Assembly: GCA_017303935.1 (NCBI GenBank)
Contig: JAFLBD010000001.1
Coordinates: 310,001 to 374,000 of the forward strand
Direction: 5' to 3'
DNA from: Armatimonadota bacterium
GTDB taxonomy: Bacteria > Armatimonadota > Fimbriimonadia > Fimbriimonadales > Fimbriimonadaceae
Length of the DNA stretch: 64,000 nt
The position numbers and the translations under genes are program-made. The notes beneath the pieces were generated by a model, which saw only the letters and a list, made by a program, of their open reading frames with translations, was not told the origin of the DNA and made no database searches. Shown in pieces: positions 28,776 to 30,601 of this stretch (the first letter of the stretch is position 1; each line of letters starts with the position of its first letter).

Positions 28776-28800
28776 GGAACTATTGCTGGGCTTGGGTTGT
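28776..28800 (+). promoter_or_regulatory. ECF-type promoter before the sigma factor gene
   Basis: GGAACT (28776-28781), 14 bases, then GTTGT (28796-28800). GGAAC is the common -35 core of ECF sigma factors. The same GGAACT-N14-GTYGT pattern occurs before the desaturase gene at 29493-29517. A ribosome-binding site TAGGAG follows at 28814-28819. Autoregulation by the encoded sigma factor is the natural reading. Confidence 0.55.
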
Positions 28801-28828
28801 TCTTATCCACTGTTAGGAGCCACTGAAT

Positions 28829-29410
28829 ATGAAATTTAAAGCTCAGCAAGATTCAAAGAGGAACGAGCGTTTTGACGCTCTAGCCGAGAGATCGCACCGA
28901 AAGGTGTACAACCTCGCCTATCGCCTTTCGATGAATAAGCAGGATGCCGAGGATCTCACCCAAGAGGCTTTTTACCGGGCGTATCGGAATTTCAACGATT
29001 TCGAGGGCGATCGGCCTTTCGAAAATTGGATTTTCCGCATCGTGACGCGGTTGTTCCTGGACTTGAACCGCGCTCGAAAGCGCCGTGTTCAGACGGTGAG
29101 CTACGATGCGCCAAAGCGTCCAGACGGTTCGGATGATCTCTTGCTCGTTGAAGCTGCGGATCAATCGCCGACCGCAGAGCAAATTTTGGTCAACGAGACC
29201 ATGAGCGAAGAGCTTGAAATGGCATTGAACACATTGAAGCCTGAGCAGCGCATGCTGGTCATCTTGGCCGACGTTGAGCAGATGCCATACAACGAAATCG
29301 CACAGGTTGCTGGCGTTCCGGTCGGCACTGTTCGAAGTCGCTTGCACCGCGCACATCGAAAGCTGAAGGAGATGCTCGAACGAACTCGAGTCAACCCTGC
29401 TTTCGCCTAA
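28829..29410 (+). CDS. ECF RNA polymerase sigma factor
   Basis: The 193-residue protein has region 2 (YNLAYRLSMNKQDAEDLTQE, then FENWIFRIVTRLFLDLNR) for -10 recognition and core binding, a short linker, and region 4 (LNTLKPEQRMLVILADVEQM, then IAQVAGVPVGTVRSRLHRAH) with the helix-turn-helix that reads the -35. No membrane anti-sigma gene is next to it; the following gene is a desaturase carrying the same promoter motif. This suggests control of membrane lipid composition, by inference. ATG is 9 bases after TAGGAG. Confidence 0.94.
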   Translation: MKFKAQQDSKRNERFDALAERSHRKVYNLAYRLSMNKQDAEDLTQEAFYRAYRNFNDFEGDRPFENWIFRIVTRLFLDLNRARKRRVQTVSYDAPKRPDGSDDLLLVEAADQSPTAEQILVNETMSEELEMALNTLKPEQRMLVILADVEQMPYNEIAQVAGVPVGTVRSRLHRAHRKLKEMLERTRVNPAFA

Positions 29411-29492
29411 TACAGACTTTTCGACTGACCCTCTCCAAGCAGGATAATCCTTGGTGTCCATCTCCCGGCGCCAGGGATTCCTGCCACTAGTT

Positions 29493-29517
29493 GGAACTTC
29501 CCGCCCTGCCCGGTCGT
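29493..29517 (+). promoter_or_regulatory. ECF-type promoter before the desaturase gene
   Basis: GGAACT (29493-29498), 14 bases, then GTCGT (29513-29517), matching the element before the sigma gene in both boxes and in spacing. The second box ends 10 bases before ATG at 29528 and there is no ribosome-binding site, so the mRNA would be leaderless or nearly so. The in-frame GTG at 29516 lies inside this box, which argues against it as the start. Confidence 0.55.
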
Positions 29518-29527
29518 GATAAATATT

Positions 29528-30601
29528 ATGTCCACCGTGATGGATCGCGAGGTCGCGCCAGAAGAGAGAAAGATTCCGAACTACCGCCAGCAGATTCGGC
29601 GAGAACTACCGGATTACGTTTTCAAGCCTGACTACTCGAACCTATGGTGGCTTCCGGTTCATTTTCTGTTGATTGGTGCCTCACTTTTCGTTATCATCAA
29701 CCACTTCAACCCGTGGACGGCGATCCTCTGTTCGGTAGTGATCGGCCATTCGATGGGATGCCTTGGTTTCATCGCACACGACATCTCGCATGGAGGAAGC
29801 ATCAAGAATCTCTTCCTTCGAGACTTCCTCACCTTGGTAGGATTCAGCACGCTGGGGATCAGCCCGCTTCTATGGCGAAAGTGGCACAACGCGGACCATC
29901 ACAACAACACTCAGATTCGAGGCGTAGACCCCGATCACCTGTTCACCTTGGAGGACCACAAGAACAATCCGGTCCTAAAGTGGCTGTACAAAATACATCC
30001 TTTGGCAAGAAACTTGGTCATTTTTAGTAGTTTTGCCTACCGGATGTCACAACAGCAGATTAGGATGCTGATCACCTATTTGCGAGACAAACACACTCGT
30101 GGTAGCGAGAAGATCTCGATGCTCTTGCAAGTCGCGGCTCAGTTGACGCCTTGGATTGTATTGACCTGGCTCGCGGGACCGCACGTGTTTGCTTTCGGAT
30201 ATTTCATTCCGCTGCTCATCACCAACGCGATGGTTATCTGCTATATCGCTACGAACCACTTTTTAAATCCTCTGGCGGACGAGAACGATGTGCTGGCCAC
30301 CTCACTGACCGTGACATTGCCGAAGGGGCTCCGCTGGCTGGATGCATGGCACCAACATTTTGGAGCGCACGTCGCGCACCATCTTTTCCCCGGCGTCAGT
30401 GGACGATACACGCGTTTGATTGAAGACACCGCCGCACGGCTCTTTCCAGACCGGTACTACTCGATGCCGATCACCCAGGCTCTCAAACTGCTATGGGATA
30501 CCCCTTGGGTGTATGAATCCAATGAAACGTTGATCGATCCTCACCGCGAAATTCGGGTCAAAACCCTGGGCGCGGGAATGGAAAAGCAGATCAAGAAGTA
30601 G
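29528..30601 (+). CDS. Membrane fatty-acid desaturase
   Basis: Desaturases of this di-iron family insert double bonds into acyl chains and keep membranes fluid. The 357-residue protein has four to five membrane helices and the three histidine boxes: HDISHGG, HNADHHNN and, late, HFGAHVAHHLFP. This arrangement is shared with acyl-lipid desaturases and some beta-carotene ketolase/hydroxylase relatives, so the exact substrate is uncertain. It follows the ECF sigma gene and carries the same promoter-like motif. ATG at 29528 is chosen since an earlier GTG overlaps that motif. Confidence 0.88.
   Translation: MSTVMDREVAPEERKIPNYRQQIRRELPDYVFKPDYSNLWWLPVHFLLIGASLFVIINHFNPWTAILCSVVIGHSMGCLGFIAHDISHGGSIKNLFLRDFLTLVGFSTLGISPLLWRKWHNADHHNNTQIRGVDPDHLFTLEDHKNNPVLKWLYKIHPLARNLVIFSSFAYRMSQQQIRMLITYLRDKHTRGSEKISMLLQVAAQLTPWIVLTWLAGPHVFAFGYFIPLLITNAMVICYIATNHFLNPLADENDVLATSLTVTLPKGLRWLDAWHQHFGAHVAHHLFPGVSGRYTRLIEDTAARLFPDRYYSMPITQALKLLWDTPWVYESNETLIDPHREIRVKTLGAGMEKQIKK

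Follow-up and report, generated by a model that had tools for sequence, protein, structure and literature searches.

Introduction

In corynebacteria and mycobacteria, the promoter consensus of SigE, an ECF sigma factor of cell-surface stress, is GGAAC-N18-19-GTT (PMC10012870). The corynebacterial sigE gene shares an operon with cseE, which encodes the anti-sigma factor, and autoregulation of sigE is apparently rare (PMC10012870). ECF sigma factors are usually autoregulated (PMC8103513); those that are generally consist of the sigma2 and sigma4 domains only, with a promoter of their own type upstream of the gene, and are typically co-transcribed with an anti-sigma gene. A role in membrane lipids is on record in Pseudomonas, where an ECF sigma factor alters fatty acids and membrane fluidity (PMC3875570). 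Literature searches found no characterised ECF regulon in Armatimonadota.

Here I describe a locus in a 64-kb stretch of Armatimonadota DNA (the whole of which is hereafter referred to as the window), from a genome of 2.56 Mb. It encompasses an ECF sigma factor gene followed on the same strand, after a gap of 117 nt, by a fatty acid desaturase gene (Table 1). The initial annotation had noted the same bipartite motif upstream of both genes, and proposed that the sigma factor drives itself and the desaturase. The best explanation overall, from the comparisons below, is that the sigma gene possesses a conserved promoter read by its own product, and that the copy upstream of the desaturase is less likely to be functional than to resemble this promoter by chance or in degenerate form. 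I would give this reading a probability of about 75%.

Table 1. Features of the sigma factor-desaturase locus, in window coordinates.
Feature	Position	Strand	Basis or remark
-35 element GGAAC, ECF-type promoter of the sigma gene	28776..28780	+	Fixed spacing in orthologs; weight-matrix score
-10 element TTGTTC, core GTT 28799-28801	28797..28802	+	GTT 18 nt after GGAAC
Shine-Dalgarno-like AGGAG	28815..28819	+	Sequence; 9 nt ahead of the sigma ATG at 28829
ECF sigma factor gene, SigE-like, 193 aa	28829..29410	+	Pfam PF04542/PF08281; NCBIfam
Strong stem-loop, no T-run after it	29439..29484	+	RNA fold of the gap, z = -3.1
Desaturase-proximal look-alike GGAAC-N18-GTG, partial match	29493..29518	+	8.2 bits
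Membrane fatty acid desaturase gene	29528..30601	+	PF00487; ATG start 29528, no Shine-Dalgarno

The sigma factor gene and its distribution

Pfam searches with the sigma protein identified Sigma70_r2 (E 4e-16; region 2, residues 18–86) and Sigma70_r4_2 (E 2e-16; region 4, residues 127–179), in agreement with the initial assignment of this reading frame as an ECF sigma gene. The two domains stand alone, joined by a short linker and with no extension, as is characteristic of ECF (group 4) proteins and of autoregulated ECF sigma factors generally. A -35 element with an AAC core ahead of its own gene is a further feature shared with this group. The nearest NCBIfam model is that of SigE (PRK09647), yet the score of 148.9 bits is under the curated cut-off of 265.

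An ortholog with 53–69% identity is present in most Fimbriimonadaceae genomes, and also in most genomes of a sister family; the third family of the order has distant paralogs only. The named relatives that possess the gene belong to Fimbriimonadaceae and other Armatimonadota. Four genus mates of the window genome (G047, G048, G049 and G050) are without a close ortholog; the last has only a 48% relative, and no GGAAC site was found upstream of that gene. One sister-family genome encodes the ortholog in three tandem copies (L098, G002:C1:93400-95587). A contig labelled Methanoregulaceae archaeon (L190, JADZEW010000001.1) bears the Fimbriimonadaceae sigma gene, and is probably a misassigned MAG.

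The promoter of the sigma gene

The motif initially described, GGAACT-N14-GTYGT, is present twice with identical spacing, as GGAACT (28776–28781) and GTTGT (28796–28800) ahead of the sigma gene, and as GGAACT (29493–29498) and GTCGT (29513–29517) ahead of the desaturase. These two copies compare to 0.07 expected from shuffles of the 64-kb window, an excess to be read in the light of the pattern having been defined only after both copies had been seen. Across the whole genome there is no enrichment, with six copies against four for the reversed control pattern, and I dropped it as a marker for a regulon across the genome. Of the four further copies, two sit within long reading frames, one overlaps a thiolase gene at its start, and the last is found before a GDP-mannose dehydratase gene, both names being read off translations rather than obtained by family search.

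Comparison of the 200 nt upstream of the sigma orthologs identified a slightly different register. The comparison encompassed 70 rows, that is non-identical loci all oriented to the gene strand, which are related to each other and include a few near-duplicates. GGAAC-N18-GTT is found in 52 of these, while any other spacing between 8 and 24 occurs in five at most; the longer form GGAAC-N16-KNGTT is found in 44 of the 70, against 0–1 in 200 shuffles. The GTTGT initially taken as the second half of the sigma motif is therefore slightly out of register; GGAAC-N15-GTYGT is present in 5/70 rows. Carriers of GGAAC-N18-GTT are spread over the whole sigma tree, and the 18 rows missing the exact motif fall mostly within certain subclades. 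In a weight matrix built from 57 ortholog sites, with the window site left out, the sigma site ranks first of 127,930 window positions, at 19.5 bits, with the next at 10.2 bits. A paralogous family of lone ECF sigma factors (labeled P0001) has the promoter in just one of 30 loci, the one being the window genome's own copy.

Judged by this comparison, the sigma gene has a real ECF-type promoter, kept across the family and particular to its sigma lineage. An alternative sigma factor of Armatimonadota thereby gains a promoter, and a specificity, with comparative support. Because the promoter is both conserved and specific in this way, autoregulation of the sigma gene is likely, and its identity to the consensus published for corynebacterial and mycobacterial SigE makes conserved autoregulation the best reading. 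The element spanning 28776–28802 would most likely be read by the encoded SigE-like protein. Transcription is predicted to start near 28808–28811, producing a short leader that includes the AGGAG ahead of the start codon. Positive autoregulation would then be an old trait of this sigma lineage in Fimbriimonadaceae.

The promoter might instead be read by another ECF sigma factor, in a form of cross-regulation or cascade. The genome has more than a dozen ECF-like sigma genes, which provide other possible readers, and one of these (C2:718597) also possesses a GGAAC-N16-GCGTT site; however, the promoter follows the lineage of the encoded sigma factor and not that of the paralog, and autoregulation is the usual pattern for ECF proteins (PMC8103513). 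I consider such cross-regulation very improbable, and retain reading by the encoded protein as the preferred explanation.

The site of C2:718597, a P0001-type gene, lies at G000:C2:718539-718564 and is absent from the 29 other loci of that family; outside these 30 loci, a copy in G081 (L258) has a GGAAC-N16-GTGTT site. It is possible that the sites before the P0001-type gene form a lineage-specific cascade. In a separate case (L031, from G018), the sigma ortholog has no GGAAC and apparently retains GTGTTC together with a GGTTAAC-like -35 element, a change that possibly represents a shift of specificity in a subclade.

The desaturase gene and its upstream site

The assignment of the downstream gene as a desaturase agrees with a match to the Pfam FA_desaturase family (PF00487, E 1e-22); a DesB-like model (NF052549) also matches, with 290 bits, under its cut-off. 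The protein has an N-terminus of the MST/MAT type, common to the L104 and L105 loci.

The upstream site of this gene is a much poorer match to the sigma promoter. Where the sigma site reaches 19.5 bits, this one has 8.2, lower than 56 of the 57 ortholog sites, and it ranks sixth among the 127,930 window positions. Its core reads GTG, while the third base in the ortholog sites is T (GTT, 51 sites) or C (GTC, six sites); since these 57 sites were chosen for GT at the core, only this third base is informative. Nor is the arrangement conserved. No convincing copy of the motif was found within 220 nt upstream of the gene in any of 24 desaturase relatives, one of which (L101) has a single loose match at -137, and no sigma ortholog lies within 1.5 kb of any of the 24 genes. 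In two relatives, both from one genus, another ECF gene is found downstream. The desaturase is present in 24/113 genomes of the order, whereas most Fimbriimonadaceae genomes have the sigma ortholog.

It is thus more probable that the GGAACT and GTCGT elements before the desaturase resemble the promoter by chance, or in degenerate form, than that they serve this sigma factor as a promoter. With the broken core, the low score, and neither a convincing site nor a sigma neighbour in the 24 relatives, the proposal that the desaturase belongs to the sigma regulon is not supported, and the "membrane-fluidity regulon" put forward with it comes down to a single weak site. Of the claim that the sigma factor drives both genes, the self-directed part is supported, owing to the conserved and lineage-specific promoter, and the desaturase part is not. 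The locus illustrates that, of two neighbours with a common motif, only one may have a real copy.

I consider it unlikely that the sigma factor controls the desaturase through the latter's own site, but the wider proposal this would support deserves to be set out, namely a small, lineage-specific membrane-lipid regulon where GGAAC promoters place both the sigma gene and the desaturase under the sigma factor, with a leaderless transcript for the latter gene. The desaturase site does keep GGAAC and, at exactly N18, the GT of the GTT core, and a site this good is expected by chance in about 0.5% of 118-bp stretches. It ends 9 nt before the ATG, hence a transcript starting there would have almost no leader; the initial statement that there is no room for a 5' leader was correct, and the gene indeed has no Shine-Dalgarno sequence. 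ECF promoters 0–1 nt from the start codon exist (PMC10012870), and the Pseudomonas ECF sigma factor is a precedent for effects on fatty acids and membrane fluidity (PMC3875570). Against this stand the GTG core, seen in 0/57 ortholog sites, the lack of a convincing site or of conserved adjacency in the desaturase relatives, and the different distributions of the two genes, and I regard a two-target regulon as improbable.

The desaturase may have a recent, lineage-specific promoter. In its most specific form, this would mean that a lone self-activating SigE-like sigma factor with no anti-sigma gene linked to it, conserved in Fimbriimonadaceae, newly recruited the adjacent desaturase in this genome through a leaderless promoter. 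This seems a rather unlikely event; if true, membrane unsaturation would be under a minimal switch that amplifies itself. SigX of Pseudomonas aeruginosa, which acts on fatty acid synthesis and membrane fluidity, is comparable in being an ECF sigma factor linked to membrane lipids; in the present case the only such link consists of a single weak site and of two genes being neighbours in one genome.

The intergenic region

With the desaturase site read as a resemblance, transcription of the desaturase would more likely begin at another promoter, perhaps without a leader, or reach it by read-through of the sigma gene. The latter could place it under the sigma promoter solely as the second gene of an operon: the two genes are close and on the same strand, and a search for a canonical terminator in the gap found none. 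However, the gap includes a strong stem-loop, the desaturase lacks a Shine-Dalgarno sequence, and the adjacency of the two genes is not conserved. A two-gene operon is therefore possible but doubtful.

The stem-loop is present in a single copy within the window, and is possibly a transcription boundary. It has no match in Rfam, and I dropped it as a candidate for a known riboswitch or other RNA.

Other sites in the genome

Counted over whole genomes, the promoter is no more frequent than control patterns, whether as GGAAC-N16-KTGTT across 62 genomes (574 against 624) or as GGAAC-N18-GTT in the window genome (87 against 110). The regulon beyond the sigma gene is therefore small or degenerate.

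An individual GGAAC-N18-GTT site of 18.7 bits was found on the minus strand at C2:829053-829078 (L374, G000:C2:818000-831500). It lies 35 nt ahead of a small Cys-rich secreted protein heading a copper-type cluster, which encodes YHS, cupredoxin, DUF305 and DUF2231 proteins. A site also precedes a Cys-rich protein and an RND efflux operon in G071. A metal-stress regulon as a general rule was rejected, as GGAAC-N18-GTT is present in 0/29 other loci with the efflux outer-membrane gene. Other single sites near gene starts in the window genome are those of gmd, dxs, a Wzz-like gene, a TlpA-like gene and the ECF paralog, which may all be due to chance.

The possible anti-sigma partner

As the initial annotation stated, there is no anti-sigma gene adjacent to the sigma gene, the desaturase being the next gene. 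This differs from corynebacterial sigE, which has its linked anti-sigma gene and where autoregulation is apparently rare, whereas here the autoregulatory-type promoter is widespread; it also departs from the co-transcribed anti-sigma partner that is typical, though not required, of ECF sigma factors. Among 40 relatives, no neighbour gene is common to most of the sigma orthologs, and the lack of a linked anti-sigma gene thus seems general in the family.

One may ask what holds a self-activating ECF sigma factor in check when no anti-sigma gene is linked to it. Its activity may be set by an unlinked partner, or by transcription of the sigma gene itself. Several other ECF genes of the window genome have an overlapping candidate anti-sigma gene directly after them. 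The genome has three zf-HC2 matches: two are in ECF operons, and the third, a weak match (C2:489110) beside which no sigma gene was found, is a possible candidate for an unlinked anti-sigma partner.
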